From positions 4,270,678-4,334,677 of the forward strand of contig OZ020515.1 of NCBI GenBank assembly GCA_963971425.1: 64,000 bases of DNA. The letters run 5' to 3'. The stretch comes from Bryoerythrophyllum caledonicum (Eukaryota; Streptophyta; Bryopsida; Pottiales; Pottiaceae). Every line of letters starts with the position of its first letter. The stretch's first letter is position 1. This document shows, one piece after another, positions 15,697 to 62,599 of this stretch. The position numbers were made by a program, and so were the translations under genes. The notes below the pieces were generated by a model. It made no database searches, was not told the DNA's origin, and saw only the letters and a program-made list of their open reading frames with translations.

Positions 15697-18600
15697 CTAA
15701 GGGGGGTCTTGCCTATCAGGGAGGACTTGGTTGTTTTCGATTTTGCGTTTATGCAGCAAAATAGACATGGCATGTTGAATAGCGATGGTGTTGATATTTT
15801 TAAAGGTAGTTTTAATTGTATCAATGGGTATCTTGAAGGTATCTTCGAGAGTTTTCATAGATGGGATAAAGGTGGTGGCACGAGCGCCGGATGTGATAAC
15901 AATAAGGGGGTCCACATTCCAGCCGAGGGCAATGATGTCGTCTATGAGGGGTTGGTATTTATCTATTTTGTTTTGTATTGTTTCCGGGGAGAATCTATGG
16001 TTGCAATATGTAAATTCGATGAATTGAATGGTGTAGTCTTGGTTGATGTTCTCGGGTGGTGGGTGGTTGTATGATAAACCTTTGACACAAAGAATGTCCG
16101 GTTTGAGCCTAGTGTTGCAATGACATCTTTGGGTCATACATGAGCATGGAAGTAGCCATGGGGGGATTGTGTTTTCTTGTGGATTGCTATTAAAAATGCC
16201 GGCGTTCATAAGTATGAAACATCTCGATTTTTTGTAGGAGGTGATTAGTTTTCGAATTTCCCATACTGCTTTATTATGTCTTTTGATGATTAGAGAGTGA
16301 ATGTGGTGGTTTTGGCATTTGAGTAGCACATGAAGCCATGTGTCAGGGTCCGTTGAGGGGCATATGGGGCATGTTATGGATGGGAATCTTTCTATTCCAA
16401 AGAAGAGTTGTTTGCGAGCGTTTCCCATATACTGACCCGTACGGAATTTGATGAGGCACGTTATTTGTGAGTCTGAGATGATGGGGTTTTTCCAAAAGTT
16501 TGTAGAGAGTTCATTGTCTATGTCGTTATTGTTAGTCCATTTTTCTATGTTAGGAATATTTTCTGAGATTGTATCCAGGTTGTTGTAGAGGTCTTGTTTT
16601 TTGAGATATTTGCCCAGAAATCTAGTTGGGCCTTTGTCGGGGGTATCTTCTTTGGAAGACCAATCTTCTTTTTGAAAGTAGTATGGGGTGGCATGAGCAT
16701 GTTCGTGAGGGTCTTTGGCGTTTTTGTGTGTTTTTTCTCGGCCTTCTTTTGCAAGTTTGTCTGCTTGTTCGTTGCCATCAATGTTGGCATGGGCTCTGAC
16801 TTTGTGAAGGGTAGTGATTTGTGTATGTTTTTGTAACATTTGTACCATTGATGTTAGTATGGTTTGGTCGGGGTGACTGTTGTGAAGGGTTGGGTGTGTT
16901 ATTTGAGTGTTTAGTAGGTAGAGTGCATTTATACAATCGGTGAATATATGTGCAGGTTCATTTTTGTATTTTGTTGTGATGATTTGTAGTGTTTTGTGAA
17001 TGGCCATGAGTTCTGCTCTGAGGATATTTTGTAGTCCATGGAGTCTTTTGGCTAGTTTAATTTCTTTGGTAGAATTATATATGCCATAGCCAGCTTTTTC
17101 TCTTCGCCAAGAGCCCGGGCTAACTTGTTCCGGTGGTTTAAAGGAGCCGTCGGTGTAATAACTGTATGCAGGGTTAAATTTTGGTGTGGTATGTGTTGGG
17201 TAGTCTGGGAGAGGGGGAGGTATGACGGAGTAGTTTAATGTGTTGTTGTCATAGTTTAATTTTGACCATTTTTTACTTTTGTTTACAGGGGTTTGTATGG
17301 GTGTTGTGGGGCCGGTATTGTGTATGGTCGTTGTATGTCTAGATTATCTGTTATGGAGGTAAGTTCCGCAAGTTGTTCTAGGGAGCCCAGGTTTTGATTT
17401 TGATGATGGACGCATAGTATTTGTAATGTAGATGGCTAAGTTCGGGGTTTTTTTAGCTCGGGTGGGATATTAGGTTCTTCGTATGGTATTGTGTCTGCTT
17501 CGAATAATGCAATGATGTGGGAATCTGGGAATGGGTTTGAATGTTGGTTGTTGTTTTGGTACCAATTGTTGTTCGGTGTGACGATGATTGTTTTTGTGTT
17601 ATTTGGATCGTGTTTGGCGGCAAGTCTAGCCCGATGTATGGCTTGTTCTATGTCTTTCTCGTTGTGGGGGTGAGCTATTCCATTTCCGATCCATTTGTGT
17701 TCAAAGGCCTTGCCTAGGGATCCAAATATTTTGTCTCTTTCGTACGGTGAGTAGAATTTATTTAGTTTGGTAGGACATGTGATCGGGGAGGAAAAGTATG
17801 AGTGTTCTATGTTAAAGGATGATATTAGTGAGTCTAAAATGGGGGTGGGTATTGTGTATTGCGCATTTTTTAGGGGGTCAGTTTTTGGTATTCGATATTT
17901 ATATCTTTAGTAAAGCCATATTAGTTCGGTTTCAAAGGGTTGGGTTGTTGGTTCAATGTTTGTAGGGGTTTGTAATTTTGTATGATATTGGTTCCATAAC
18001 CATTGGACCCGGGTAATGGGTATGGTGTGTAAATGTCGGCCGTTTTCTTCGTATAGATGTGCTTGATTGTTATCTATTTGAATTGTGTTTGTGGATGTAA
18101 GGATATCATTTTCGGGGTTGCATTCTGTTGTGTAGATGTTTAAGAGTGGGATAATTATGGGTGGCATTACGGACCTTGAGTCTGAGGATTGTTCTTGTGG
18201 ATGGTGGGCAAGGATGATATCTGAGTATATTTTGTTTTGGATCTTTTGGTAGTATTGTTTTAATTTTCCAGTGTTATGTGTGGAGGTATTGGTGTCATGC
18301 CGTGGAAAAAGGTCTCTTTGGGGGAGCCATTTATTGTATGTATTATCATTGTGTTGCCATTGGCATAGATATTTTGTGTAGGTATTTTGTATGTTATTTG
18401 TGTCTGTGTGTTGGATATGTTTATGGTTTATGATATTATTAATGGGGTATGTGGTAGGGTTTTTGGCGATGTATGTTGGGGGGCTGGGGTGGTATGTATG
18501 TGGAGGGTTAGGAGGATTGGTTGGTGTGGGAATATTTCTTGGGATGATGTTATTGTTAAGGGTGATGAATGGATCTTTAAGTGTATGAGAGTATGGGTGT

Positions 18601-33928: not shown

Positions 33929-34862
33929 CTCCTAGAGGCCCAGGACTCCCTTGGGGGACTCTCGAAGGCTTGGGCAGGTTCATGTTGTGTCAAATTTTAA
34001 TAGTCTTCTTTGGAATTTCTAATGTAGATGGACATTACTAAAAGCTTCGTGCAAGTGCAATTTTTTTCCCAAATCCAACATTTATTGGAAAAGTTTTAGG
34101 GTTTTCAGTTTCAAATGGGGGGAGCGGGCACGTCGGGTAACTCCAATTTTTTTTTCCTATAACACTCTATCAAATGTGAGATTCTCAATTCTAGCAAGTA
34201 ATATTATTTCCTTGGATACTGTGAAAAAAACATTTCTTGTCTTTAATGAAAAATAGCACATTAACCCAAGCCAAACATCTTCACACATTGTCACACATTG
34301 TTGGGCAAGGTACCAAAAAAACTTCTTACTTTCCACATAAATCTAAGAGATCTTCATATTTTTTTGCATTTTGTTCTTTCCACTACAAGATGTGGTGTAA
34401 ACCTTCTTATTGACGGTTTGGAATCTCATTCTAAAACATATTTCGTTCACAAATAGATATAATGTGAACCTCCACTACTTGCACAATTGTTTTGAATATG
34501 CTACTCTTCTTTTCTACCTTCAAAAATTGGTGTACAAGGAACTAACATCATGATTAATCTGATGGTGATTTATTTAGACCTTGTGTAGTGCAAAAATTGG
34601 ACACTAAATGAAGTCAAAGTTTGTTGATCCACTCAACCCAAGGAAGAAAATGAGTCATTTTTTTCTAATTCAAACACTATCCTTTTTTAATCTTTGTGGT
34701 CAAAGTTTATGAAATTTGTTGTGGACATTATTCTATAAAGCTTTATTGAAATTCTACGGTTAGATGTAGAATTAAAAGTTTATGTTTTCCTCCTTACTCA
34801 TTGCACTACAAGGAGCAGTTTTGAAGTGTTTTTGTCGTGAAAATGCCTTGGGCCTTTAGGGA
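33929..34862 (-). mobile_element. piggyBac-like MITE, inverted copy
   Basis: A 934-bp element flanked by TTAA (33925-33928 and 34863-34866), ends CTCCTAGAGG and GGCCTTTAGGGA. Inverted relative to the copy at 10,726. Its interior matches that copy over most of the length. Confidence 0.8.
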
Positions 34863-35389
34863 TTAAACATCAGTTAGGGAATCGTATATACATGCAAAAC
34901 ACACAATTAAGCAATTATACACTTGGCCAAGTGCACTACTCGGCACTCAAAAACCAGAAGATTTAGCCCCCAATTTTTAATTTAAAAAAAAATGCTACGA
35001 TCTTACTAACTCTTTTGTATTAAATTTTTTTTTTGTTGTGTTACATGTTGTGTTACATGTTGCGTTACATATTGCATTAAATATGTGTACGTATGTGAAT
35101 AATATGCAAAATATATGAAAACTATTGTTTTAAACTTATGTAGAATATATGATTATTAAATTGGTTTTTTTTTTTTTGAAAACGACATTGTTCATGTACT
35201 TAAAATCTATACATACATCTTGAAACATAAGACAATATCAGTCGTGTATCACTTCCAATACTTTGGTGATTCATTTGTTTTCTTACGTGTTTGTACTATC
35301 ATATAATGAAATACCATACCTTGATGTGAGTGCAACAAATCATTTGTAAAACAAAGCATTATGTGTAAAGATATTAACTTCCAAGCCCT

Positions 35390-35585
35390 GAACATCACCA
35401 AGGCTAGTAGAAGCCGGTTGGAGGTAGTTGAGCAACCTTGAAGTTAAGCAAGATGGTCAAGGAATAGGACTTGGATGGGTGACCAAAGGAACTAGGTTGA
35501 GATTTCCTGGCTCTTCTTGGCTTCGCCTCGCGGAGCCCGCAGGGAACTCGGGGAACTCGTATACCTCGTGTAGCCTTTCACCCAC
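35390..35585 (+). repeat. 5S rRNA-derived sequence, possible SINE
   Basis: Matches eukaryotic 5S rRNA from about 35,411 to 35,490: agccgg, then aagttaagc (35441-35449), then ggaatagg-act and ggatgggtgacc (35473-35484), with spacing close to that of 5S. These cover the internal polymerase III promoter (A box and C box). It diverges elsewhere and continues into unrelated sequence (cggagcccgcaggg) and a short AT-rich tail, so it is not a working 5S gene. A 5S-headed SINE or a captured 5S pseudogene are both possible. Confidence 0.6.
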
Positions 35586-35636
35586 GAGCATTAATTTTAT
35601 ATTAAAATTTATTTTATTAAGTTATGTTCGTGCGGA

Positions 35637-36198
35637 GTATGCGCGCACACCCCCCTGGAGGTTTGGTATCGGGCGGCGTTGAGATGCAGCTCTCCTTCGC
35701 ATGTTTCTCCGCCACTCACACACTCTTCCCGGCCGCTCAATCCCTCTCCACACAGCTCACAGTCCCTCTTCTCCACAGAAATTACAGCCCTTTCTCTCCA
35801 CACAACTCATAGCCCCTCCCCGTGGCCGCTGAAACCCCCTCCCCTCTCCCCTCTCCTTGCCGTTGCTCAAACCCTCTCTCCCCACCTCAAATCCTACACC
35901 GCCGCTCACCCCTCTCCCCGCTCACTGCCTCTCTCCTCCGCCGCTCATTGCCTCTACCCTCTACCGCTCAAACCCTCTTCCTTCCTCCGCTTAAGACCTC
36001 CCCCCCACCGCAGCTCACACCCCCTCCCCTCATACACTCCCCTTTTGCCTCTCCCATACGAGTGTGTAAAACACATATCCATAGAGTCCTAAACCTCACC
36101 GCTACTCCACCCCTTCGGAACCCTAATCCGTCGCTGCTTACACACTCTCCCTCACATGATCCTCTTACCTCCACACGGGTATGCGCACGCACACCCGT
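35637..36198 (+). repeat. Pyrimidine-rich block bounded by GC palindromes (in A)
   Basis: About 560 bp of C/T-rich sequence running from agtatgcgcgcacaccccc to ggtatgcgcacgcacacccg. The open frames here (35,679-36,283) are low complexity and not convincing. A block of the same size and design lies in transposon B at 45,096-45,667. Confidence 0.5.
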
Positions 36199-37168
36199 CC
36201 TCGCGACCAGCCAGCCTCGAAATCAAGGACTGGTTGGGAGAAGATTCGGCCGTCGATCTCCTGCACCTATTGTGGGCTGTTGATCTGGGTGCCAAGGTCC
36301 AGTCCCTTAGCCCGTAGGCTAAGTTGCCACCTGCACCTGCATGGCGCTTAGGATTGATAAATCAATTGTTTAATAGTCTCCTACCTTGACATGGGTTCAC
36401 TCATTTCCTTTGGATATATCGCGTATACCCCAATGTTTGAATTCAAGGGCGAGGATTGTCTCAAATGAGATCGACGGCGATGATTGGCCACGGCCAGTGC
36501 TCGATTTAAAGGCTGGCTAGTGACGAGGCACGCCCCTGGAGTCCTCAACTCGATGCCGTTGCTCCAAACCCGCAGAATCCTAAACCCGCGGCCATCCTCA
36601 ACCTAACACCACCAAACCTAAATCCGGGGCTTCTTTCCTCTCCCGTACTCCTCTCCTCCTTTCCTACTTTCCTCCCGCTATACATATAAGGAGTGAAATT
36701 TTAGTAACTACTTTAAGTATCATGTATAGTGTACGCACACTATGTAAATAATAAATGCTATAAGTTTTTACTATTGATTAATTACATCACCAAGTGCATG
36801 TATAAATGCCTTCATTTTTTTGTCTTCTTCTTATGTATCATGTACCATGTGGAATTTCTTCATATCAATTGGCAATTATCTTTGGATGATTGCATCTTTT
36901 CTACATTACAATTCTTATAAGCTATTTACAAAATTTTGTACAATGATATTAAATAGACATTTATCAAAGTTCAACAACGTTACACTAAAAATTTGTTGAA
37001 AAAGAAATTTAACAACTTGTTAAATTGACAATTTTAATTGCACACAATATTGATCCAAAAACTCTATTTTTTTTTCAAAATTGACAAAAAAATTTAAAAT
37101 GTGGGAATTTTGGTGCGCCATGGCCGTCGTGGTTCCTAAGTGCACTTTTAAATGGCCAAGTGCATAAT
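36199..37168. other. Rest of transposon A, no gene
   Basis: Moderately GC-rich to about 36,640, then AT-rich to the right end. No coding region or RNA gene recognised. The last 40 bases (gtgcacttttaaatggccaa and onward) mirror the left end of B. Confidence 0.5.
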
Positions 37169-37180
37169 TGCTTAATTGCA

Positions 37181-38246
37181 CACAACAAAATACAATAATG
37201 AACCCGCACATATATTCACCGATTGTATAAATGCACTTTACCTACTAAACACTCAAATAACACACCCTACTCTTCACAATAGCCACCCCGACCAAACCAT
37301 ATTAATATCAATGGTCCAAATGTTACAAAACCGAACACAAATCACAACCCTCCACATAGTGAGAGCCCATGCCAATATTGATGGCAACGAAGAAGGAGAT
37401 AAACTAGCAAAAAAAGGCCGAGAAAAAACACACAGAAAGGCCAAAGACCCACTGTACGAACATGCCCATGCTACCCCATACTACTTTCAAAAAGAAGACT
37501 GGCCCTCCAAAGAGGATACCCCCGACAAAGGCCCGATTCGATTTCTGGGCAAATATCTCAAAAAACAAGACCTCTACAACAACCTTGACACAATCTCAGA
37601 AAATATTCCTAACATAGAAAAATGGACTAACAATAACAACATAGACAATGAACTCTCCACAAATTTCTGAAAAAATCCCATCATTTCAGACTCACAAATA
37701 ACATGCCTCATCAAATTCCGTACTGGTCAGCATATGGGAAACGCTTGCAAACAACTCTTCTTTGGAATAGAAAGATTCCCATCCATAACATGCCCCATAT
37801 GCCCTTCAATGGACCCCGACACATGGCTTCATGTTCTACTCAAATGCCAAAACCACCACATACACTCCCTTATTGTTAAAAGACATAATAAAGCGGTATG
37901 GGAAGTTCGAAAACTAATCACATCCTATAACAAATCGAGATGTTTTATATTAATAAATGCTAGCACCTTTGATAACAACCCACAAGAAAATACGGTCCCT
38001 CCTTGGCTACTCCCATGCTCATGTGAGACTCAGAGATGTCACTGCAATGCTACGCTCAAACCGGACATCCTTTGTGTTTAGAGGTTTACCATATAATGAT
38101 CCACCACCCGATCACATTAACCAAGACCACACCATGCACATATTGTAACGATAGATTTTCCCCGGAAACAATCCAAAATAAAATAGATAAATACCAACCC
38201 CTTATTGACGACATCATTGCCCTTGGATGGAATGTGGACCCCCTTA
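37181..38246 (+). mobile_element. 5'-truncated LINE, first part
   Basis: Same family as the 15.4-30.4 kb LINE. It begins inside the RNase H region (YNNEPAHIFTDCINALYLLN) and runs through GNEEGDKLAKKG and CPICPSMDPDTWLHVLLKC with several stops. It inserted into the right end of transposon A with the 12-bp duplication tgcttaattgca (37169-37180 and 51695-51706). At 38,246 it is interrupted by transposon B and resumes at 51,231. Confidence 0.9.
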
Positions 38247-38277
38247 AACACGCAATTAAGCAATTATGCACTTGGCC
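38247..38277 (+). repeat. Left terminal inverted repeat of B
   Basis: Pairs with 51200-51230 over 31 bases with one mismatch. Just inside is gtgcacttgg; an A-run of about 24 bases follows at 38,335-38,360. Confidence 0.9.
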
Positions 38278-38815
38278 ATTTAAAAGTGCACTTGGGTACA
38301 ACGGCGGCCATTGCGAACAAAAGTTGCAAAATTGGAAAAAAAAAAAAAAAAAAAAAAAATGTTTTCCAAAGGAAAAAAAAATTGAGCTTCTGCAACAATA
38401 TTACGTACAATCATGGTTGTTCATATTCGAAGCGATTTTCTTGGCATTTTCAACTAATTTGTGGTGGACCCTCGTTAATGCTAGATAAATGTGTATTTAA
38501 TATAGTTTCACAATATTTCAAAGATAGATTTGAAGGATTGTAGTACATAAACAGGCGTAATTACAAAAAAACATACTTTTTGCAAGGGTTGGCAGTTGAT
38601 TAAAAAATATTCTACGTAGTACAGAATGCATACAATGGTGAAAACTAAATATAGATGCTTCAACAATTGGACTTAGCACCAATAGTAAACACAGCTTTAC
38701 TCTAAAGGATTAATGACATAACGTCTTACATCACCCTTAGAATATACTACTCTTACACATACACTATATATCAATTACCATACACAACTAGTATACCCTC
38801 TAAAAAGCACACTAT

Positions 38816-41089
38816 CTACTCCATAGAATTTAGGGCTGCTTGCAAACGGTCGTCATCGATAGCTTCGGTTTGCATTGCAATATATTGTAGGATGTGAGCC
38901 TTTGCCGATTGAAGAATGCGAATCCTGCTTTCAACCTGCACTCCAAATACATTGCGCTTTCTCCACCCGCTGGCCCCGGACATGGTTCTTTCCAATGTGT
39001 CTACCCATGAAAAAATGCATGAATCTTTCTCTACCCAACTATGGCTCTCCCCAGATGGCTCCCAGAATGAATCCATGCAATTTGCATATCGTTGTGCAGA
39101 AGACCCATGTCCATCAGTAACCCCCCTTTGAATGATGGGCCAATACCAGCAAACCTTCATCTTAAGTCTCCATCGGTTTCTTCCTTCCTCAATCACTTTT
39201 CCCACATAGAATGGTACACCACCTTCTATCTCTGCTCGATCAACACTCAAGGCTACAAACTGTCCACAACGGATATCAGATTGTGGATTAAATGGTGGAA
39301 ATGGGTCGTGATTACCTTCATACATTCCTCCTTCTTCGGCGCGTTCCTCAACATAGTTGCGCTCTGTTTGTTGTGCCCTATGCACTGCTTGATTAGAGGG
39401 TCTTCCTTTACGAGGACCAAAGTATCCTCGAGCCTCGGCATTTGGAAGCATCGCCACTACCTGCTCTACGACATCTATCTCGCGATTTTCTTCACTTGTA
39501 CCATCCATTACATCCAAAGATGCAGTCTCTGTAGGTACAGTGTTGCAGAACTTTGAAGGCCAAAACGGTGAGCAACGATGCTCATTGCTACGATCTTTGT
39601 GTGGAAATTCAGCTAAATAGAGTTTCAATCTTTCAGCCTCTACTTTTGCCTCACGATTCTTGTCTTCATGCTGCAATCTTTGAATGCACCTTTGTTTATA
39701 TACAATGAAGTCATCCAACGCCTTCAACTCTCGTTTGTCCGCTCCAAATACTTCCGCAAACGATGGTTGCTCATCCCTACTTGGCAACGACCTCAAAGTT
39801 TTCGTTCCTGCCTCCGGTCCCCATGGATCCTTGTAATAATGCTTGTGTTGTTCTATAAGACTCATCATTTCCTTCAACGAGTCCACGTCCGACCTCTTCA
39901 ACGTATTTGATATACAACTGAAGCGTTGATCAATATCTTCGTGCGTATGGCCCACTATAAGAAAACATAGTTCCACCTCTTGAAAAAACCCCAATCCTAC
40001 CAATGTAGCACATAGAGCAAACATATAAATGTTTTTGTTCTCGCGTGTGCAGTTGTCCGCTTGGATTCGCAATGTTGGTGGCAAAAAGCCCTTCCTCCGC
40101 AGCACATCTCCAATCACGTACAACAATGTACTCACGACTTGATTGCTATCGTGTTTGTGGTGAGCTCCAAACCACACGTCGCAATATAAACCAATACCAT
40201 GTACAAGAGCACCACACAGATGGGTCTTCACAAACCGGTGTTCAATGTTCTTCACAGTCTGCCGCATCCTCGGTACCATGGTCGTATTTTGGTCCATGCC
40301 ATCCACTATGATGCACATATACAACTCAGGGCTAATATAACACGACCTCTTGAATATCCAATAACGCCTACGTTCTTCCATCTGGTTGCGTAGATGCAAC
40401 ATAAACAACTCTTTTATCTTTATTCTTGCATCCGCATTGGTGGTTCCCTCCATGGCACATTTATACTCCCAACAATGATAACGCTTTGAGAATCTCGAGA
40501 ATGGAGGTACCTGAACGTGGGGATACTTGATGCGCCACATCCTCCGGAACGAACTCATAGAAATGGTTTCACCATCACAAATTGTCTTGACCTCCTCGTT
40601 CACGTAATTGAATACATCAAATTTGGCTGTATTCATAGGAAGGAGAATGAGAGGCACCACTTCGTTGTCACTCTTACGGCGAATACATCGATGAGGTTGA
40701 GGACAACCAGCTTCATCGACAAACGATTTAAAGCAAGCCTCTGCCGCAGACATCCTAGTGCTCTCTCTGATTGGATCTGAAAGGGTATTGCCATGAATTG
40801 ATGTCACTCTTCCATATATTAAACAGTCCTTCTTCAATTGCTTAAAGCGCCTCTGTGAATATCCAACCCCAAGAGCATCGCAGGCATTGCAAACTTCTTT
40901 CCCATCTAACTTTGTTACAAACTTGTCTCAACGAGTTCCTTCCGTCCTTGTGTAAAAAGAAACCAGCATCTGTCTCATCCACGTACTTCGTACTGAAAAC
41001 TCATTACCCCATGCATTATATCGCATGTCCAATAGATACCTTGCTGGAACGTCCCTCAAACAATTGCGTTTGCATCCTCCTTGTTCCAT
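38816..41089 (-). pseudogene. DUF7869-like protein, candidate transposase of B
   Basis: Starts MEQGGCKRNCLRDVPARY (ATG at 41,089), changes frame once near 40,930, and continues DKFVTKLDGKEVCNACDALG through a long open frame to a stop at 38,816. The core carries CIIVDGMDQNTTMVPRMRQT, LRIQADNCTRENKNIYMF and FLIVGHTHEDIDQRFS, the hallmarks of proteins annotated with DUF7869 in plants, protists and cnidarians. The spaced acidic residues (DGMDQ, ADN...EN, HTHEDID) could form an RNase H-like D/D/E site, so I infer it is the transposase of B. Cys pairs near the N-terminus may bind zinc. The C-terminal 150 residues have no motif I know. Identification of the family is good; catalytic role is inference. 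Confidence 0.75.
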
Positions 41090-41104
41090 TGCAATTTGTA
41101 CGGT

Positions 41105-41826
41105 TCAAAGCGATACCTTAGCTGGTGCAGCTTCCGTCAATGATGGCTCTCTTGAATCTCTCCTTCTCCTATTCTGCATAGAATAGGGACGACGTGTTGG
41201 TCTAACATAAGCAAATCCATCTACATGGGGCAAATCTTGGATGTTTGAAGGAGTAGATTGAGAAAATGGTGAATTCTCATCTATGGCGTTTGAAGCATGA
41301 CTACTGCGTCGAGACCTCTCCGTGGATCCTGGTGTACTGATGAACACAGAAAAATCAAATTCTGGGGCCATCACTTGTGTAGGCGATATTTGTGATCCAT
41401 TGTCACCATGGACACCTATGATATCAGGTTCTATTGCCACTACACGTAGCAAAGATCGATGCCAACGAATGATCAAGCCCACACACATGCCAAGGCGTTC
41501 TCCTATAATCTCTCCGGTCCAATGCAATGCATCATCTACCCTAGTGATACGCACCGCCACCTTGAATGGGAACAACTTCGACCCATTCAATTCCATGCCA
41601 CTTTTGAATGCATGCTCCCTGGTTGCTAAGCCCACCACATCCCCTGTTTCAGAAAACAATTCTACTGTCCTTCCAATTCAGATGTCATGATCCCATCAGA
41701 TCTCTGTTGAATTTGCCTTGCACGTGCTGCTCGTACTAATCGGGCCTCCACAGAGCTATTGGAATGCATATTATCCCTTTGGATGTGTGGTCGTATTGAA
41801 GGAGTCTGAATCGTGCGGCTCTCCAT
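41105..41826 (-). pseudogene. Small ORF upstream of the DUF7869 gene (B)
   Basis: Begins MESRTIQTPSIRPHIQ at 41,826 and, after a frame change near 41,660, continues through SETGDVVGLATREHAF, KVAVRITRVDDALHWTGEI and RLGMCVGLIIRWHRSL to a stop at 41,105, sixteen bases before the DUF7869 start codon. The last third is Ser/Arg-rich. No family recognised. It could be a separate accessory protein or the N-terminal part of the DUF7869 protein joined by splicing (a possible GCTAAG|GTATCG donor lies at its end). Confidence 0.5.
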
Positions 41827-42047
41827 TATCACTATTGAAAAAATAGGAACATTTTGGCTGCACACTAGTCAAATACATGTACTAATTGTTAACCTTAAAA
41901 GCACCATTCATCTGATAAAAGATATGTTTCTAAACACATATTTACTGTTCAAAATATGATGATGATATTGGACCTTTTGATAAAACAACTTTAAAATGGA
42001 AAAAATTAAGAATTTGTAGAGCATGAACTCCTTGCACGGGTCTTTAA

Positions 42048-42992
42048 CCCTGAAGGTACAATGACAGTGTTACACCCAAAATACTTCAAAATTCATGGAT
42101 ACTAGTGCAATGAACAAAACAGGAAATGAAAACTATTATTTTTAGTTTTGACCATAGGATCTCGATAAAGACTTATTAAGTAATATATATACATAAGTTT
42201 CATAAACTTTGACCGTACGGATTGAAAGATAATAGTATTTGAAGTTAAGCATATGGTTCATATTCTTCCCTGCGTGCTGTGGATCAGCAGACTTTGACTT
42301 CACTTGGTATCTAATTTTGACACTACAGAAGGTCGAAATCCATAACCATCTTGTTAAGGATGATGTTAGTTCCTTCTACACCAATTTTTAGAGGTAGAGA
42401 ACGGGTTTAGCATATTCAAAACAACTGTACAAGGAGTGGAAGTTCGGAATTTGTTAATTCTAACTGTAATTTTTTGTGAACTTCATATGTTTGAGATTGG
42501 TAGTCCAAATGGTCAATAAGATGGTTTACACCACATATTGTTGTGGGAAAAATAAAAAGTGAAAAATAAAAAGATATCTAGGTTTTATTTGGAAAACAAG
42601 AAGTTTTTTTGGTACCTTGCCCAACAACGAGTGACAATGTGTGAAAATGTTTGACTTAGATTGATATGTTATTTTTCACTAAAGACAAGAACTTACTTTG
42701 ACATCATTAAGTAAAATAATATAACTTGCGAGTACTGAAAATCTCACATTCAACAGAGTGTCCTAGCAATAGATTTTGGACGTGCCCGACTTGCCTGCTC
42801 TGCCCATTTGAAATTCAAAACTCTACATTTTTTTGAACAAATGTCCAATTTAGGTAATAATTGTATTCCCACTAAAGTCTTTGTAATACCTTTCTATAGT
42901 GTAATTTTCAAAGATGAATGTTGGAAATTGACACCATAGGAACCTGACCGAACTTTCAAGAAGCCCATTTTTGACACTTGATCCTTTAGGGG
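42048..42992 (+). mobile_element. piggyBac-like MITE inside B, copy 1
   Basis: TTAA at 42044-42047 and 42993-42996, ends CCCTGAAGG and TCCTTTAGGGG, 945 bp. It lies between the two divergent gene blocks of B. It closely matches the neighbouring copy at 43,120. Confidence 0.8.
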
Positions 42993-43119
42993 TTAAATAT
43001 GCTACACCTGTTTTGCATCCCTAAACATTGGTATAAAATAGAACTAATATCATTTCTGACAAGATGATGGTAAATCTAGATCATGTGTGATGCAATCTTT
43101 TGAAGCCAAGTGAACTTAA

Positions 43120-43960
43120 CCCCTAAGGTACTGTGACAGTTTTACACCACAAACACTTCAAAATTAATGGATTCTAGTGCAATGAACAAAGAGGGTAACA
43201 AAAACTTTGATTTTTAGTTCTGACCGTAGGATCTTAATTAAGACTTATTAAGTAATACAAGTACAAAATTTCATAAACTTTGACTGCATGGATTGAAAGA
43301 TTATAGTGTTTGAAGTCAAGCAAATGGTTCATTTTCTTCCCTGTGTTTAGTGGATCAGCAGACTTTGACTTCAGTTGGTGTCAGAAAAATTCACTACACA
43401 AGGTCTAAATCCATTACCATCTTGTTAAACATGATGTTAGCTCCTTACACACCAATTTTTAGAGGTAGAGACGGGGTGTAGCATAAGAAGGTTTACATTA
43501 CATATTGTTGTGGCAAAAATAAAAAATGAGAAATACGAAGATCTCTAGGTTTTATGTGGAAAAGAAGAAGTTTTTTTGGTACCTTGTCCGACAATGAGTG
43601 ACAATGTGTGAAAATGTTTGACTTGGGTTGGTATGCTATTTTTCACTTAAGACAAGAACTATTTTTTGACAACATGAAGGGAAATAATATTACTTGCGAG
43701 TACTGAAAATCACACTTTCAATAGAGTGTCCCAGCAAAAGTTTTTGGAGGTGCCCGAGGTGCCCGCCCTCCCCATTCAAAATTCAAAACCCTATAACTTT
43801 ATCATCAAATGTCCAATTTAGGAAAAATTTGTTTTTCCACTGAGCTCTTGGTAATGTCTTTCAATAGTAAAAACTTCAAAGTAGAATGTTTGAAATTGAC
43901 ACCATAGGAACCTGACCAAACTTTCAAAAAGCCCTTTTTGGACACTTGGTCCTTCAAGGG
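43120..43960 (+). mobile_element. piggyBac-like MITE inside B, copy 2
   Basis: TTAA at 43116-43119 and 43961-43964, ends CCCCTAAGG and CCTTCAAGGG, 841 bp with an internal deletion relative to the 945-bp copy. Same orientation as its neighbour. Confidence 0.8.
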
Positions 43961-44952
43961 TTAAACGAAGGGAATCCAATGAACCTAGGAAAGCAAATGA
44001 ACCATGTTGTCTACTTGCTATTATTGACACCATTGGAACTTGTTACAATTGCTAATAAAAGAAAGGACTTCTACATCCACATAAAGGTCATTCTACAAAC
44101 AACATAGTACAAAAGCTCAATCAACACATAATATTAAAGTTGTATAAAAATAAATGTTTACCTCAAAATACGTTGCAAGTGTTAGTGGTACACGCATTGG
44201 TGCTTGATGGCGTTCAACATTTAGTCACCATTCCATCGTTGTTGTTGAACATGTTTTTCAACTCTTCTCACTTTACCTGCAACACATGCATAAAATTTAT
44301 ATGGTAAACTATGTGATAAAATCTCCTAATTATCTTCGTATTACATATAGCCCAAAATTATAATATAATATGTAAAAAGTTTAAACAAAAGGAGAAACAA
44401 AGCAAAAGGTCCAAAGTTCTAAAGTCAAACTTTGACTAGTTAACTTGGGGCACAAGGTTCCAACATGGATATAAGGTTTCTATGCAAGACTAGCGGTCTC
44501 TTCCCTTCCCAGTTTGTAAGGTGAGTTCTCTTGCAATCGAAACCTCAAGGCCTTGTGCATTTTTCTTCATTCACTAATTTTTGTCAACTTTGTATGTATT
44601 GTGTAGATTGGAGGACATTTGCACATCGAGGAGATTTTTGCGAATTTGGTAAGCTTCGTTTCAATTCTGAATATGAGGGAACTCCAGGGTTAGACTCAAG
44701 ATGATTAAAGTCAGTTACAGTTCCAATAGAGACTAGTACCAATAGTGGAGCGCACAAATGAGAACATGAACTTGAGTATGTTTAAAATTACAATTACGAC
44801 GAGGGTTTACTGATCACACAACAGTCAACAACTAGAGAGTGCAGGTTTTGTACAACTGAAACACTGGCACCAAAATCACACAAAACTAAAGCCAAGAGAT
44901 ATCTCGTAGAATAGCACTAAGTCCTGAGTATAGCACATCAGTACACTACCTC

Positions 44953-45047
44953 AAACCCTAGCCGCCGCAACCAAAACCTAGCCGCCACAACTAAACCCTA
45001 GACGCCGCAACCAAACCCTAGCCGCCACAACCAAACCCTAGCCACCG
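44953..45047 (+). repeat. 20-bp minisatellite with telo-box core
   Basis: About 4.7 copies of a 20-bp unit, aaaccctagccgccgcaacc, starting at 44953, 44973, 44993, 45013 and 45033 with an exact period. The aaaccctag core matches the plant telo-box found in promoters and leaders of growth-related genes. Confidence 0.8.
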
Positions 45048-45095
45048 TTCCCATAGAGTTCGCACAACACCTCATGGAGCAACCTGTAGACAGGA

Positions 45096-45667
45096 GGTGT
45101 GCGCGCGCACACCCCCCAACTGCTGCTGGTCCTCCATCCATCGAAAAAAGTCCTGGCCTTCATGATGAGTCGCGTGCCACCTCTTGACGACGGTAGAAAA
45201 ATCTTCGTGGGCGCCTGATCTTCAAGTTAAGGCGCCATAACATCAAAAATGTCGGCCCCCTCGCTGCTTCGCAGCCCCCTGGACACCCTAGCTGCGGCGC
45301 TGTGCGGTGCGGTGCGGCGCAGGCGCGGCGCTGTGCGGCACAGGGAACATCAAGGCGGGGCGCGGGCTTCTCTTCCGCTACTTCACATCTCCTCTCTTGT
45401 TGCAGCTGCTCTCTCTGCGGCAGCTCTCTTCTTCACCATTCCTCACACCTTCTCTCACACCCAAACCATTATCCTCTTCTCTCCCAAACCCTAGCCACCC
45501 ACACATTCTCTCTCTCACACCTCCCCTCCATTCCTCTCCCTCACAACTCATCTCCCCTCACAAGACCTTCTCTCACAAACCCACAAGCCTCTCACTCCTC
45601 CAAACCCTCTCTCACGCTCACAGCCTCCCTCACAGCCACTACCAGGGGTGTGCGCGCGCACACCCCT
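45096..45667 (+). repeat. Pyrimidine-rich block bounded by GC palindromes (in B)
   Basis: Left border ggtgtgcgcgcgcacacc (perfect 18-bp palindrome, 45096-45113); right border a perfect 24-bp palindrome at 45644-45667 with the same core. Between them lie a GC-rich start and a C/T-rich run (ctctctctcacac). Frames across it (45,249-45,733) are low complexity. It resembles the block at 35,637-36,198 in transposon A; whether they are homologous is not certain. Confidence 0.55.
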
Positions 45668-45884
45668 CCTAGGACTACCCAAGTTTGCAAAGGATTGATA
45701 CCCTTTGTTGAAACCCTCAAATCCCAACCCTAATCCAAACCCTAAGTTGATACCCTGACTATATACCCTGGTTGATAACCATATGTTATACCCAAGCAGA
45801 CATACCTTGGTGGTGATACCCTGGATATTGATACCCGAAGTACCTTGGTCCATAAAAGATGTTGAGAATATCTCAACCAAATTT

Positions 45885-46600
45885 CGTTAAAAATGCTTAT
45901 TTTAGTGCAATTAGCAAGGGAAAAAAAAAACTATTTTTTATAGGTTTAACCGTAGGATCTGAATAATGACTTATTAAGTAATATGCTTACAAAATTTCAT
46001 AAAGTTTCACCGCACGGATTGAAAGATTATAATGTTTGAAGTAGTGAAAAGGCTCATTTTCTTCCCTGCGTTTTCTGGATCAGCAGACTTTGACTTCAAT
46101 TGGTGTCACATTTTTGCACTATAAAAGGTCTCAATTAATTACCATAATGTTAAGAATGATGTTACTTTTTTATGTACTAATTTTTAGAGTTAGAAAAGGG
46201 GTGTAGCATATTCAAAAAAATTGTGCAATGAGTGGTGGTTCAAAATTTCTCAATTCACGTTATGTTTTTTGGTGAATTTGATATCGTTTGAAATGAGAAT
46301 CCAAATGGTCAATACAAAGGTTTACATCAAATAATGTGGGAGGAAAAATTAAAAGTGGATCATACGAAGCTCTACAAGTTTTATGTGGAATGGTAGAAGT
46401 TTTTTGGTACACTCCTCTAAAATGTGTGACAATGTGTGAAAACAATTGATTTGGATTAATATGCTATTTTTCCTATAAGAACTAACAACATGCTTAACAC
46501 GATGGTATTGAATTTAGATCTTGTGTAGTGCAAAAGTTTTTAGAGGTAGACAAGGGGTGTTGTATGTTCAAAAAAATGTGAAATGAGTGGTGGTTCAAAA
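45885..46600 (+). mobile_element. piggyBac-like MITE remnants
   Basis: Internal landmarks of the TTAA MITE family in order (taccgtaggatct, ggatcagcagactttgacttc, gtttacatcaaataatg), then a second short overlapping piece at 46,478-46,600. Both termini are missing. It ends just before the acceptor of the plus-strand gene of B. Confidence 0.6.
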
Positions 46601-46667
46601 ATTCTTATTCCATACTAATAGTGGCTATCCTTTTGTAATGATATGCAGGTTTTTTGAGTGTTGCGTT

Positions 46668-49600
46668 ATGGCACCACCAAATATTGATAGAATCTGGGAG
46701 AGCCACGGCTGGTGGATCGCGGAAGTGGATGAGTCGAGCGCCTTCTTATGGGTGACAGATTATCCCTTTGAGCTGGGGAAGCGTACATCGGCGTTGGGGA
46801 AGAGTTTTGGCAAAATCCAGGCAATCACTCTTCGACGTGATGATACGGTATACGTTACTTGCGTTGTGGGTCCAGGTCAATCGGAGGTGAAGACTTCTCT
46901 TTCGAAGAAGTTGCTTCTTGCACCTGTCCCTTTGAATCTTCTTCAAAATCCAGGTCAGGTGAAATTCCTCAAATCATTGCAGACGTTTTGGTTGAACATC
47001 TCTCTTGCGGTACGTACCGCTAGACACAACAACGTCTTAGCTTGTTTAGCGTTATCACCGGAGATGGTGCTGAAGGCTAAGAAGATTATGGAAGAACATA
47101 TTAGATATGAAGCATTTCGAGAGAGGGACCCATCCCGTGCGACAACTCAAGCCCCACCAGCGGAACCAGAAGAAAGAGAAGTTTATCGAATTCTTGCTGA
47201 GCCGTTGCAACTGGATTGGCGACCACTGGAGGGGGGAGAGGAAGTGGAGGCCAACATCCCACCACAACTTCTGAGGTACAGACATTACCGAATCCTCCAT
47301 TAACGAGTAGACGTCCTACGAAGAGGCCACGGCGTGTTGACAATGATGTAGCTTCTGGTTCAAGAGAAGGCCCATCAAGTATGGATCCAAGTGGGAGGAG
47401 GTTGATTGAGAGAAATGCAAGATCGGGTGGCAGGATTCCTAGGTCGGGGCTCAGGACATCTGATGGTCATCGTAGGGCCCCTACATCTGTACCGGGAGAT
47501 TTAGCTGATTTGTCAGCCATGGCGCCGGAGGAAGAAGATTTTCACAACCTTCCAGACAGTATACCAGAGGATTTTAAAGACAATGCGGAGATACCACAGG
47601 ATCTTCCAACTCCAATGAATTTAAAAGCACCAGTGCCTACAACAGAGGAGATTGCCAAAGGATCAGTGTGGGGGAATTTTGTGTTTAAGGCACACATAGA
47701 CCGCATTGTCTCTGTGGAGAATCCGGAAACGAACCACCGGGTTTTATCACAGAAGAGGGTCATAGAAGTATTCAACCGCTTACGAGACCCAGAATCCGCG
47801 ACTCGGGTGAGTAGATTGGTACTTTGACCGATCAGATACATCGTGCATACTACCACCGATGATGGTGTCGTTGAGAAGGAAGAGCTGCCATTTCCATTGG
47901 TAGGTACTGCACGAGAGTTTGAGCGCATGTTCATTGCACACGGGAGTGCTTCTGCACATGGTGCTATGGGATCCCAATATTCTTGGCTTCAAGATCATAT
48001 CATTTGGGAACCGGTGGATGGGCAACACATAGTAGCAGCTTGTAAGTTTGCACAACAGCAGTGGAGAGATGGTACTATGCCTTTAAACGAGTATCTGGAC
48101 ACGTTTGAGCGGCGGGAGGCCTCTTTTGTGGTGTATGATGATCATCGCTTTTACATTGAGAAGTCTGCACGGATCAACATGGCGGAGTTCTAGAGACATT
48201 CATATTCTACCATGGAGGAGGATTTGAGGAAGATCCGTCAGATTTGGGATCTATACGGGAGGCCTGATAGCACACTACGTGCGGACGATGTACGCAGGGC
48301 TGTTGCTTTAGTGAGTGCGGCAAGTGCAGTGCACAAGTTGCCCAAGGGAGATGGAGTTGTCACGGTGAAGAGGTTGGCCAAAAACATGGAGGATCTGACC
48401 AATTATGCATGGAATTCAAACAATGACTGCTTCGAAGCTATCATTCAAGTATGCAAAGACTACAAAGACGACATTCTCTTTTACAGCTAAGAGGAAGAGG
48501 ACAAGTGGAAGGACATGGCGAGGAAGAAAGAGCTGGATCCAAATGTGGACGTACGACCAACAAGAAAGGAGATAACGCAGAATTGCTTGAGGCCGTTAGG
48601 TTGGGTTCCGAATCCATATTATCTTCGATTGGCAAAGTCTGCTGTAGCGAAGCCGGTGGGGGAGGATGGAGTAAGACCACGTCAAGCATATTATTTTGAC
48701 GGTGTAAAAGACAAGAATCCACGTCCTCGTACGATTGCCGGTGTGGTTGACCGATATCAGAGACGAGAAGCTGTGATGAATTCCATCCGTTGGTTGATGG
48801 TGGAGAACAAGGAAAGTACACCTAATTCCATGGAGGAGTTCTTTCGTATCCGTATAGGGAAGTATTTTCCGAGGAGTAACGCACAACTTAATACGTTTGG
48901 GAAGCTTTTGAATGCTACCACGAAAAAAGCTTGGACTGCTCCTGTGCGGGGAAAGGTGTCTAAACTGGAAGACATAGGCTACCTCATCCCCCCTTCCATC
49001 AAGTTTCATTATGGTGACATTGCAGCAGGGGGGCGTGGATACATTGGACTGTCCGTGGATGTGAGAGGACTGGCTACTGCTAATTGGGAATGGCAGATGG
49101 AAGTCAAGAAGCCAGGCCAGAGCGGCACAAAGAATCTTCTTCCGGTTCGGTGTAGAAGAGGGTTATTCCGCACCGACTACATAGAGTTGGGGAAACCATG
49201 TTCGTGGGTGATTGATTGTCGACGTGGCGGTGGGAGGCATGGAGATGGTCATTGGGGAGACGCCCAGTTATCCGCAGTTTTTGCACAGCTGGCATTATGA
49301 ATGCCAAATATTGAACGATGGAACGTCATCTTCTTGTTACCAGCGGCCGTGTATGCCAACGAAGAGTTTTTCACGAAGGTGAAGCTTCCAGAGGGGTGTA
49401 CTATGCGACGTGGATGTTGGGCATTTGATCCAAACTCGGTTAATCCCTATGCTCTCGATTTTACAGAGAATGGGCGTCTGGAGCAAGTAGTACAACCAAT
49501 TGGCGATGTTGTGATTTGTATGCAGCACCCTGTGGGTACATCTCCTGGCCCGAACTATGTTTCTGGAGACGTTTCACTTCCTCTTGTTTTCTTGGATCAC

Positions 49601-50632
49601 TGGAGTGAGGCACGCCAACCCTCTGAAGTTGATTCAGTTGAGAGATCTCCATCAGAGCTGGCAAGACTAGTGGGCTCATACTTGCCCCGTGGTTGGGGTT
49701 TAGTGGCGTGTAACATATCTACGGCCAATCCCACGATCCTTGAAGGAGATTTCCAGGGATCTGAGGTTTTCATCATTGACGATTGTACAGACAGAGTTTC
49801 ATTTCTATACAATGAGTTGTCCGACAATTTCCAAGGACAACTGTTGGTTAGGACTGGTGGAACAAGTACTGGTTGCAACATCGTACCTGAGACTGAAGAG
49901 GCGGTTGGTGGAGTGAGGAATGAAGACGACAATGAGGATGGAGGTGGTTTAAATGAGAGATTGCCACGTTCAGGTACCACTGAAGATTTCTCATCTCACA
50001 GTGGTTCAGACGCCGATGAAGATGGAGTGAACCAGTCTCCTCCAAGAGACAGGATTCCATCAACGCAGCGGGCGGTGGGAGATACTTCAGGGCAGACATC
50101 TGCAACACCTACAGAGAGGATGCAAGATACCGGTGTAGTAGATGTTAGATTGGCGGCAAGGGCAGGAGGGGGGCGTACATTTGATGGTCATAGGCTGGAG
50201 ATGGAGGAAGAAGGATTGGATTCATGTGAATTTTTTTCGGTGCAGAGGAGGATTCCACAACCTTTGATGCCTTCTCAATCACAGCCTGTATCGGAGACAC
50301 TAGAGACATTTGGAGGTACTCAGAGTGATATCGGACCAGGTTTGCATTCCGTTCCAAGATCTAGCGTATCCGAGGACATCATTGCATTTCAGGGGGCCTT
50401 CTCATCAGAGCGAGAGATGTCCTTCAATCCTGAAGATGGCTTTTTCTACAATGATGATCGCGTAAGGCATACACGGGAGGGTGTACCTGGCAATTACCGA
50501 TTTGTTGAGTGTGCATCCATTGGCATCGAAGATGTGGGAGATCGTCTAGTGCAGGATCATGAACTGTCCGCTATGGTAGGTAGCGCCATTGGACACGTGG
50601 AGGGAGTCGTTCCGCCAGAAGATGAGCTATGA
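46668..50632 (+). pseudogene. Large unrecognised protein of transposon B
   Basis: Starts MAPPNIDRIWESHGWWIAEV. One frame change lies between about 47,200 and 47,300; from 47,216 to 50,632 a single frame runs on, interrupted by four stops (near 47,826, 48,192, 48,489 and 49,299) with coding-like sequence on both sides of each. The total is about 1,300 codons. Landmarks: HGWWIAEVDESSAFLWVTDY, WLQDHIIWEPVDGQHIVAAC, GVVDRYQRREAVMNSIRWLM, SWVIDCRRGGGRHGDGHWGD, NIERWNVIFLLPAAVYANEE, then an acidic, Ser-rich C-terminal tail. The middle part has a conserved, globular look, but I recognise no family; a nuclease, methyltransferase or DNA-binding role cannot be told apart by eye. It faces away from the DUF7869 gene within the same element. 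Confidence 0.65.
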
Positions 50633-51199
50633 GCCGTGGAGCTATATATTATAGTAGAGCATGCACGCAGTTTAGGTGGCAAGTGCGTTAGTATAATGTA
50701 GTTTGAGATGTGTCTATCGTTCGGTGGTTGGTATATATTTATATATTGGGTGGTCTATATGATATGTTTGATTTTAGAATTCCTCAGCAATAGTGTGGAA
50801 TTGCTTGATTATGTATGTTTTTGCATTATAAAATACAGTGAGGTACTTTACACTGTCTTAGGAAATTGCATATATATTTTTGTATCTCTTACACATTGTA
50901 TTTGTAGTGCACTACTCTAAAATCCTATAATAACTCATAACAAATTTATAATCTCTTTGGGCACATGATTATGATTTTGTAGCAGGATTTGTAAACTAGA
51001 TTAGAAATCATATATTTTCTAAAAAAAGGTAGAAAATGTAAAAAATATATTACTGATATGAACATGAAGATGCCAAGGTATGACACAACAAACACCGAAA
51101 AAATTTAACAAAAAACATACTAAAATTTTGCCAAATTTTGATTTAAAAAAAAGTTATGAGTAAATAACTTGCGGCTTTCTACCAGCAAGCAGTGCACTT
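50633..51199. other. 3' region of B, non-coding
   Basis: AT-rich sequence between the plus-strand gene and the right terminal repeat, presumably holding the transcript end. No gene seen. Confidence 0.5.
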
Positions 51200-51230
51200 G
51201 GCTAAGTGCATAATTGCTTAATTGCGTGTT
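51200..51230 (-). repeat. Right terminal inverted repeat of B
   Basis: Inverse of 38247-38277 with one mismatch, ending cttaattgcgtgtt at 51230 and followed by the CTTA duplication. Confidence 0.9.
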
Positions 51231-51694
51231 CTTATTGTTATCGTGTCTGGCGCTCGGGCCACCACCTTTATCCCATCCATGAAAACTCTAGAAGATACCT
51301 TCAAAATTCCAACTGAAACAATCAAAACCACCTTTAAAACATTAACACCATCGCTATTCAATATGCCATGTCCATTTTACTACGTAAACGCAAAATTGAA
51401 AATAACCAAAACCTCCCCGATACACAAGACCCCCCTTAAATGCTCCTCCGCCCAAATTTATCCTGATTAGTTAGTTTTGTGGTTTTTGGCTACTTGCTTA
51501 GTTAGTTGGTTGATCCGTTGGTTGGTTGTTTGTGTGGTCGGTTTTTGGCTACCCGTTTCATAGTGTCTACCCTCGAAAGGGAGAAGTAGTTCCAGCTTAC
51601 TAATTCCCTGTCCGGTGGGCATGGTCTTAGTAGTGGAACGAACAGACATTTTATTCACGCCGGTCCCCTTTGGAAACCGGCGCTCTTCTTCTTC
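51231..51694 (+). mobile_element. 5'-truncated LINE, second part
   Basis: Continues the LINE interrupted at 38,246: ttgttatcgtgtctggcgctc, C-terminal ORF2 codons (FIPSMKTLEDTFKIP), the 3' untranslated region, the hairpin and a TTC tail. It is followed by the 12-bp target duplication at 51695-51706. Confidence 0.9.
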
Positions 51695-51710
51695 TGCTTA
51701 ATTGCATGTT

Positions 51711-53339: not shown

Positions 53340-54997
53340 CAGTGGCAAGCACACTGCAACTTAGAGTGTATACAGTGGACAGAGAGGCATCTCTCATAAA
53401 TATGCCCACTGTAGCATAATTAATGAGTTCGTAAGATATTTTTTGGGATTGCTTTAATCAACACACCACATGGCACCTTATTAATATTGACTCCTTTAGA
53501 ATTTGACACTTGTAGAGATTATATATGCAAAGATCATGAAGAGGTGCGTACGACTTATTATGCTCACAAGTTGTGCACACCATAATCTTCTCATTACATA
53601 TCCATTGTAAAGCTTTTTGTTGTGAATTTTTTTTGTAAGATTTGGAGAGGCCCTTGGAGAGTAGCCATGGCTCCTAGAAGATCTGAGAATTATCGCAGAA
53701 CAGTTGTTGAAATGTATGAGCGAAGGAACTCATATAGAGAGATTTCAGCACTTTTAGGCATTCCTCGAAGCACTTGTTCTGACTAGTGCGACGGTTTCGT
53801 GAGAGAGAGACCTTGAAAGACAAAGCTTCACCTGGTAGACCTAGAATTCTTGATGAACGTGGTGACCGTGACATTGTGAGGAGGTTAAATGATCCACATA
53901 CTAGTACAGCTGCAGCTGTAGGACGTGCATTACGATGTGAGGGTATGCGATTGAGTGATGATATGGTGAAAAGAAGTCTTTGGAGGCAAGGGCTAAGAGC
54001 ATGTGTGAAGACCAAGAAGCCACTTTTGACAAAGAAGCATCGAGCTCGTCGTTTGCAGTGGGCAAAGAAGTGCAAACATGCAACTTGGGAATTTTTGGAG
54101 TCATGTCATTTTTTCTGATGAATCCAAGTTCAATCTTTTTGGCTCAGATGGACGTCAATATTGTTGGAGAAAGAGTGGAGAGCGTCTTTTGGATGAGCAC
54201 GTGCAACCTACAGTCAAATATGGGGGAGGAAGCATAGTGGTTTGGGGTTGTATGAGTTGGGAAGGAGTTGGCAAGCTTCATTTGATTGAAGGGAAGATGG
54301 ATAAATATGTATATCGCAATATTTTAGAGACGGAACTTATGGGCACTATACAAGTGCAAGGTTTAAAAGAAGATCATGTTTTGTTTCAACACGACAATGA
54401 TCCAAAGCACACTGCACATTATTTTGTAGATTGGTTGCGTGCTCAAAAGTTTATTACTATTGGGCATCCTCCACAATCACCTGACCTCAATCCAATTGAA
54501 CATCTTTGGAATGAAGTAGATCGTTGTATAAGGAGGTTTGAGAGGAAACCTACCAGAAAAAGTGACTTGTGGGAGAAGATTCAAGAGATTTGGTACAACA
54601 TAGAGGTTGATGTTGTCAGGAAGTTGATACGCTCTATGCCTCAAAGAGCTCTTGATGTCTACCATGCAAAAGGTGGATATACACGGTGGTAGCGCTTGTG
54701 AGTGGTTAAGAGCTAAATCATTGAGTCATATAGTTATATTGTGACTTAATATATTGTTTCTATAGCTGATATACAATAGAATGAATTCGTGCATAAAGAG
54801 TTGGACAAGCTTGTTGCACATATGAATTATTGTGTGTTTTTCTAGTTCATACTTTTATTGAAAACTTTGTGTTTTATGCTTGTTGCATCTATATACTCTG
54901 ATGGTTATATTCTTGCTATTTTATGACAATTCATGTGGATGTGGTAGCTAATTTTCTAAAGAAGCTTCTATTGTACGACTATTTATGCTTGCCACTG
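53340..54997 (+). mobile_element. Tc1-like DNA transposon (1,658 bp)
   Basis: Ends CAGTGGCAAGCA and TGCTTGCCACTG are perfect 12-bp inverted repeats flanked by TA at 53338-53339 and 54998-54999, the target duplication of Tc1/mariner. Size and layout fit Tc1 elements. A third, inverted copy of the CCACTGTA end motif occurs inside the left part near 53,405. Confidence 0.9.
53667..54692 (+). pseudogene. Tc1-like DD34E transposase, two frame changes
   Basis: Cut-and-paste transposase. The N-terminal helix-turn-helix (NYRRTVVEMYERRNSYREIS, ALLGIPRSTC) starts at ATG 53,667. A frame change near 53,784 leads to VRRFRERETLKDKASPGRPR, the GRPR AT-hook-like linker. A second near 54,100 leads to the catalytic part: HVIFSDESKFNLFG, LFQHDNDPKHTA and PQSPDLNPIEHLWNEVD. 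I count 34 residues between the second Asp and the Glu, the DD34E spacing of Tc1. It ends AKGGYTRW. With two frame changes the copy is inactive but otherwise well preserved. Confidence 0.9.
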
Positions 54998-62578: not shown

Positions 62579-62599
62579 TTAAAGATTAAAATAAGGCAA

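Follow-up and report, generated by a model that had tools for sequence, protein, structure and literature searches.

What kind of mobile element carries, between two precise inverted ends, a gene of the domain family DUF7869 (gene 1) and, on the opposite strand, a second and very large gene (gene 2), and what might their products do for it? The question is raised by a 64,000-nt stretch of contig OZ020515.1 of the land plant Bryoerythrophyllum caledonicum (the window, meaning this whole stretch, whose coordinates are used below), in which an insertion of about 13 kb with base-exact ends, here called element 1, lies at positions 38,247-51,230. The best explanation, to which we give a probability of roughly 0.75, is a Sola-like cut-and-paste transposon encoding a DUF7869 transposase and a divergent, DNA-binding, non-methylating partner with predicted ParB-like and methyltransferase-like folds. 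The copy in the window is a dead, decayed member of an abundant plant transposon family, and both of its genes are broken.

The limits of element 1 can be read from its target, a long interspersed nuclear element (LINE). On the left the LINE sequence ends in CCCC CTTA and the element begins with AACACGCAATTAAGCAATTATGCACTTGGCC, and on the right the element ends in GGCTAAGTGCATAATTGCTTAATTGCGTGTT and is followed by CTTA TTGTT; the terminal inverted repeats (TIRs) are 32 bp long, with a single mismatch at base 28. A preliminary description of this DNA had proposed a TIR transposon with base-exact ends, revealed by a pair of LINEs and flanked by a CTTA duplication, and this is borne out by the agreement of the junctions, the TIRs and the uninterrupted empty site in LINE copy 1. 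That copy, on the minus strand, is unbroken across the site (GTGGACCCCCTTATTGTTAT, with CTTA at 15,906-15,903), and since it runs straight through it, exactly CTTA (4 bp, no more) was duplicated. Within the window, a 27-base end query allowing up to three mismatches was found at three places, with none expected from 100 shuffles. Element 1 is hence confirmed as an inserted TIR transposon with a 4-bp duplication.

How far does this hold beyond the window? In the genome to which it belongs (437,360,962 bases, 894 contigs), a 23-base end pattern has 1,495 matches (750 forward, 745 reverse), and the reversed pattern, used as a control, has none. With the 84-bp left end as query there are 1,290 candidates, and the 40 of them that were scored are all 99-100% identical; 20 of these 40, taken in list order with 10 kb each, the window copy and one copy near a contig end being omitted, form the end-selected sample. 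The right end falls inside the 10 kb at six of the 20 loci, which represent five distinct ones (the flanks of L017 and L018 are identical), and it stands at the predicted place at 11 of 11 further loci; at copy L012 no right end was found in an additional 5 kb. L018 (C4:22,157,936-22,167,935) and L017 (C4:22,175,696-22,185,695) lie about 18 kb apart, in an apparently duplicated segment. The 16 end-selected copies with both ends measure 5.0-13.7 kb, and the short ones (L013, L017/18, L022 and L024), which keep both ends and lack part of the middle, were presumably mobilised in trans.

Target duplications were counted in 18 copies, namely these 16, element 1 and a shorter relative in the window (element 2), with L012, L014 and L016 outside the counts. 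Exact duplications of 4 bp are found in 13 of them, of 3 bp in one, and of 5 or 8 bp in none; random pairing of the flanks of the same set gives a mean of 0.9 exact 4-bp matches and a maximum of six in 2,000 trials. The five failures are element 2, L023 and L027, which match at three of four bases, L025, which is shifted by one base, and L015, which has no match. Among the gene-selected pairs, both outer flanks of which were read in 14 cases, ten show an exact 4-bp duplication, one an exact 5-bp and none an exact 3-bp duplication, the other four comprising the 5-bp match, a three-of-four match, a mismatch and a damaged right tip. Combined, the exact 4-bp duplication is present in 23 of 32 copies and an exact 5-bp one in a single copy of the 32. 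These 23 duplications are varied and rather AT-rich (G or C at 21 of 92 letters, counted by hand), and include CTTA, GGTA, TGAA, CAAC, AACA, AATA, TGTG and CATG. In 12 of the 14 gene-selected copies the ends are of a second type, with AACATGCAATTAAGCAATTTTGCC as the left and AACATGCAATTAAGCAATTATGCA as the right sequence; one of these right ends differs by a single change.

The gene pair is tied to these ends in both directions, as the preliminary description had anticipated in looking for the same pair between such repeats elsewhere. Starting from the ends, gene 1 is present at 15 of the 20 end-selected loci, with 1,005 or more of its 1,063 codons aligned, and gene 2 at 11 of the 20 within the 10 kb read, all 11 carrying both genes. 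Starting from the genes, there are 4,260 candidate loci of gene 1, of which the best 43 were scored (82-84% identical to the relative P0001, 32 of 43 stop-free), and 2,393 of gene 2, of which the best 35 were scored (65-78% identical to the relative P0079, 19 of 35 stop-free). At 17 of the 35 scored gene 2 loci, a scored gene 1 locus lies 3.9-7.7 kb away, always in divergent orientation, when about 0.14 such pairs are expected by chance. Both frames are stop-free in nine of these 17 pairs, and terminal repeats were found outside the pair in all 14 tested, one of them with the damaged tip.

Gene 1 was recognised from the start as DUF7869-like, and Pfam supports this at E 3.5e-45. In the window it contains two in-frame stops, it has lost nearly 60 codons without a change of frame, and its start region is unrecognisable. 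A small open reading frame (ORF) that had been taken for a separate gene turns out to be its N-terminal part: by tblastn it is in frame with the DUF7869 ORF and separated from it by stop codons, and a third gene is not supported. In the structure predicted for P0001, an RNase H-like fold carries three acidic catalytic residues, as in DDE/D enzymes. The residues E630, D631 and D633 are adjacent; D631 and D633, and not E630, reach 90% conservation in an alignment of 61 sequences, and E630 and D631 are invariant in one of 26. The product of gene 1 is thus predicted, from its modelled fold, to be a DDE/D-fold transposase. Its whole-gene median ratio of non-synonymous to synonymous substitution (dN/dS) is 0.34 (101 pairs from 16 copies, decayed ones included). 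Relatives were found neither in viral contigs nor in prokaryote genome contigs, and two DUF7869 relatives, P0054 and P0074, are named from sea urchin and mussel, so the DUF7869 family extends into animals. Copy L012 of the element harbours an additional DUF7869 gene at 4,273-8,003, which shares 80% identity with P0001 and has a separate left-type end. DUF7869, a word found in none of the openly licensed papers searched, would in this way gain a likely function, that of transposase in a plant element of high copy number that makes 4-bp duplications, together with a link to a second protein family, whose 11 relatives among the matches listed bear no Pfam annotation.

This second family is that of gene 2. 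The large divergent gene of the preliminary description does exist, but not as an intact gene: in the window its reading frame changes once, near 47,230-47,250, and four in-frame stop codons interrupt it; elsewhere its family includes longer members without such breaks. The model of its relative P0086 (1,125 aa) combines a predicted ParB/sulfiredoxin (Srx) fold with a predicted beta-class DNA amino-methyltransferase fold. After the strand (568-573 of the model) where the catalytic motif [DSN]PP[YFW] would be expected, the motif is absent and the sequence mostly reads W[VI][IF]DCRR, the position being assigned from the model. DCRR is invariant in 11 of 11 aligned relatives and in all five genome copies read, and C-R-R is conserved in at least 90% of 13 relatives. 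At the place of the S-adenosylmethionine (SAM) loop stands VACNISTA or a similar stretch, not glycine-rich, as judged by eye and also on a non-significant hhalign path. In the ParB-like part, a conserved EPVDGQHIV takes the place where, by eye, the nucleotide-binding motif is expected, and the arginine is absent; in ParB and sulfiredoxin proteins this motif is GERR or GCHR. Scans of the gene 2 pieces and 13 relatives against Pfam gave only matches judged to be due to chance (for example CxC3/KDZ at E 0.12 in one of 13). No relatives of gene 2 were found in viral contigs, genome contigs not having been searched for this gene, and tblastn of P0086 against a phage collection returned five records at E 3, with no significant similarity.

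Is such a protein merely an enzyme in decay? The whole-gene median dN/dS of gene 2 is 0.37 (45 pairs, 10 copies, decayed ones included), and by parts (eight copies, three of them decayed) it is 0.215 for the methyltransferase-like (27 pairs) and 0.214 for the ParB-like part (26 pairs), the linker and the C-terminal tail standing at 0.69 and 0.50, respectively, and the pairs not being independent of each other. Both predicted domains are under purifying selection, and their contrast with the linker argues against the simple decay of an enzyme; together with DCRR, this selection suggests a retooled, probably non-methylating protein. Gene 2 could then be a dedicated DNA clamp with a fixed DCRR, a selected and essential partner of DUF7869 in the synapsis of the ends or in shielding from host silencing, a proposal that we make tentatively and which, if true, would describe a transposition system of two components, assembled out of a partition protein of bacteria and a DNA-marking enzyme that has been retired. 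The strongest rival, although we consider it rather unlikely, is that gene 2 encodes a DNA amino-methyltransferase that is active through an unusual catalytic motif and would mark the DNA of its own element. The predicted fold matches that of active N6A/N4C enzymes, the domain is strongly conserved by selection, and a study on the brown alga Ectocarpus suggests epigenetic self-modification for a Sola1 element (PMC12477816). However, DCRR replaces SPPY/DPPY in every relative and copy read, the SAM-loop region, by eye, is not glycine-rich, and replacing Ser and Tyr of SPPY by Ala abolished the activity of the rotifer enzyme N4CMT (PMC8885841).

In the mechanism that we favour for this Sola-like transposon, the DUF7869 protein would act as a DDE/D transposase on ends of the form AACA[C/T]GCAATTAAGCAATT..., making a 4-bp staggered cut in varied, rather AT-rich targets. 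The gene 2 protein would bind the DNA of its own element, the ParB-like part possibly holding on to it as a clamp or an anchor and the methyltransferase-like part, a module that no longer performs ordinary methylation, gripping or reading it, and the protein might unite ends 13 kb apart or shield the element's DNA.

Several points weigh against this reading. Nine of the 32 copies fail the exact 4-bp test. Both folds are predictions and all biochemical roles are inferred. Foldseek gave no match in the Protein Data Bank (PDB) at E <= 0.001 for either model, its top rows for gene 1 are dominated by PIWI domains of Argonaute (an RNase H fold, yet not transposases), and sequence searches of the PDB with both genes yielded nothing useful. 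The gene 2 model is only moderate, with a mean predicted local distance difference test (pLDDT) of 53 and a predicted template modelling score (pTM) of 0.34 from 13 sequences. Its profile against nine beta-class methyltransferases scored 14.6 in hhalign, with 30 column-shuffled controls reaching up to 19.6 (not significant; P0090 and P0091, in which the motif search located fewer than both landmarks, were dropped from 15 rows), and the comparison with E. coli YhdJ alone was not significant either, which leaves the predicted fold as the basis of the methyltransferase claim. The dN/dS values come from interdependent pairs that include decayed copies. Moreover, at 17 of the 35 scored gene 2 loci no gene 1 locus from the scored 43 lies within 20 kb, and at one more the scored gene 1 locus is 18.9 kb away and not divergent, the pairing being counted only among the best 43 of 4,260 and the best 35 of 2,393. 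Finally, the Sola-like assignment, a putative one, is based on duplication, TIRs and layout.

The next rival is that DUF7869 transposases are not Sola but a new superfamily, which came by the shared 4-bp duplication and its ParB-methyltransferase partner independently, by origin or by acquisition. No comparison made here ties DUF7869 to a named superfamily, its absence from the openly licensed papers searched would agree with novelty, and 4-bp duplications are not unique to Sola; nevertheless, the 4-bp duplication, the conserved acidic residues within an RNase H fold and the opposite-strand ParB-methyltransferase-like gene all fit the descriptions of Sola and Sola1, which leaves a new superfamily not needed and, in our estimate, about one chance in five. 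More doubtful still is that gene 2 is a passenger that rides along without a role in transposition. The short derivatives without an intact gene 2 named above bear exact 4-bp duplications, and gene 2 is therefore not needed in cis; against the passenger stand the purifying selection on both predicted domains, a whole-gene median near that of the transposase and the divergent layout in 17 of 17 neighbouring pairs. A chance repeat or an assembly artefact, for which nothing speaks except the imperfect duplications in nine of 32 copies, is practically dismissed by the empty site, by the 1,495 end matches against none in the control and by the 23 exact duplications.

Table 1. Features of element 1 and of the insertions around it (window coordinates).
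Feature	Position	Strand	Evidence
Left target-site duplication CTTA	38243..38246		Sequence; empty site in LINE copy 1
Left TIR, 32 bp	38247..38278	+	Sequence; genome matches to its 23-base pattern
Right TIR	51199..51230	-	Sequence; window search with 27-base query
Right target-site duplication CTTA	51231..51234		Sequence; LINE alignment
Empty site in LINE copy 1	15896..15915	-	Alignment
Gene 1, DUF7869 (PF25273), broken	38816..41677	-	Pfam E 3.5e-45; tblastn with relatives P0001 and P0005; predicted fold of P0001
Small ORF, N-terminal part of gene 1	41105..41677	-	One tblastn stretch covers small ORF and main ORF, same frame
Gene 2, ParB-like plus methyltransferase-like (predicted), broken	46668..50632	+	Stops in sequence; tblastn with P0079; predicted fold of P0086
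LINE copy 2, apparently 5'-truncated, target of element 1	37181..51694	+	12-bp duplication TGCTTAATTGCA at 37,169-37,180 and 51,695-51,706
Element 2, same ends as element 1, about 2.3 kb	34898..37180		Right TIR split by LINE; last bases 51,707-51,710
Dispersed repeat of about 0.95 kb, two copies within element 1	42044..43969		Repeat comparison; matching stretches at equivalent positions of several further element copies
Same dispersed repeat, further partial copy	45889..46605		Just upstream of gene 2

Element 1 is the last of three nested insertions in the window (Table 1): LINE copy 2 entered element 2, splitting its right TIR, and element 1 afterwards entered LINE copy 2. Element 2 is flanked by GCAA on the left and GCAG on the right (three of four bases alike), and it is considered a non-autonomous relative because it resembles element 1 only in its terminal stretches, over about 72 bp on one side and about 43 bp on the opposite one. 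In its interior, positions 35,398-35,510 resemble by eye part of a 5S ribosomal RNA gene; Rfam at gathering scores gave no match anywhere in the window, this stretch included. The dispersed repeat of about 0.95 kb is abundant and is also found elsewhere in the window, in both orientations (10,722-11,678; 34,078-34,831; 55,547-56,301; 61,674-62,582). The upstream frame of the LINE (21,473-23,302, minus strand) encodes an endonuclease domain preceded by a 2A-like peptide, LLLLLGGDIETNPGP, together with another, degenerate copy, GGDIEINPRP; that a plant LINE should carry ribosome-skipping peptides would merit attention. The window further contains an open frame with DDE_3 (54,030-54,692, plus strand; E 1.4e-12) that looks like a Tc1/mariner-type transposase, a tandem array of 185-bp units that are 88-96% alike (58,031-59,070), and pieces of a resistance-type gene with NB-ARC and leucine-rich repeats (3,908-6,454, minus strand), the latter with 141-bp internal repeats; these gene pieces by themselves indicate a land-plant host.

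How does element 1 compare with known systems? With Tc1/mariner transposases and retroviral integrases gene 1 shares a resemblance at the level of the predicted fold only, the PDB sequence search being without match, and the mariner target duplication is TA. PiggyBac and Kolobok, which target TTAA, were rejected with none of the 23 exact duplications being TTAA, and so were CACTA/EnSpm (3-bp duplications) and KDZ (8 bp), given an exact 3-bp duplication in one of 18 and none of 14 copies and an exact 8-bp one in none of 18. As for gene 2, it can be compared with ParB and amino-methyltransferase proteins of phages and giant viruses: Foldseek aligns its model over 763 columns (E 3e-4) with one of them, the 'ParB/Sulfiredoxin' protein A0A6J5MMM5 of an uncultured Caudovirales phage in BFVD, although this has 494 aa against 1,125, and the alignments of the model with phage proteins have low TM-scores and a root-mean-square deviation of 20-29 Å over the whole length. 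Unlike gene 2, the N4CMT of bdelloid rotifers keeps SPPY and is an active enzyme with a fused chromodomain, which places N4-methylcytosine (4mC) on transposons (PMC8885841).

The closest likeness is with Sola. Bao et al. are said to have distinguished in 2009 Sola1, Sola2 and Sola3, reportedly with a DDD rather than a DDE triad in an RNase H-fold transposase. Element 1 shares with this superfamily its 4-bp duplications, its TIRs and, by prediction, the RNase H fold of its transposase. The duplications are more varied here than the AWWT given for three families of Sola2, also a group with 4-bp duplications (PMC3627910), and a Sola1 of Physcomitrella appears in a review table (PMC9033089). The Sola-type integration that had been suggested for element 1 fits both the duplication and the similar two-gene layout of a brown-algal Sola1, the likeness being one of description. 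This is Sola1-1_Ec32 from Ectocarpus, a Sola1 DNA transposon of 21.5 kb, likewise giant, whose gene on the strand opposite the transposase combines a ParB-like with an N4C/N6A-type DNA methyltransferase domain; that paper, the only one judged relevant among the openly licensed ones listed for ParB and transposons, also reports decayed transposase genes and nested repeats common to copies of the giant Ectocarpus elements, and its authors propose that proteins of this kind attach to the transposon encoding them and alter it epigenetically (PMC12477816). The domain of Sola1-1_Ec32 is predicted to be of the N4C/N6A type, whereas DCRR stands at the motif position here, and its host is a brown alga, whereas ours is a land plant, both protein pairs being compared by their descriptions (PMC12477816). 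A ParB and methyltransferase-fold partner reported in algal transposons is thereby met in a land-plant genome, in many copies, under selection and with an apparently altered active site, which makes the role of such partner proteins directly testable.

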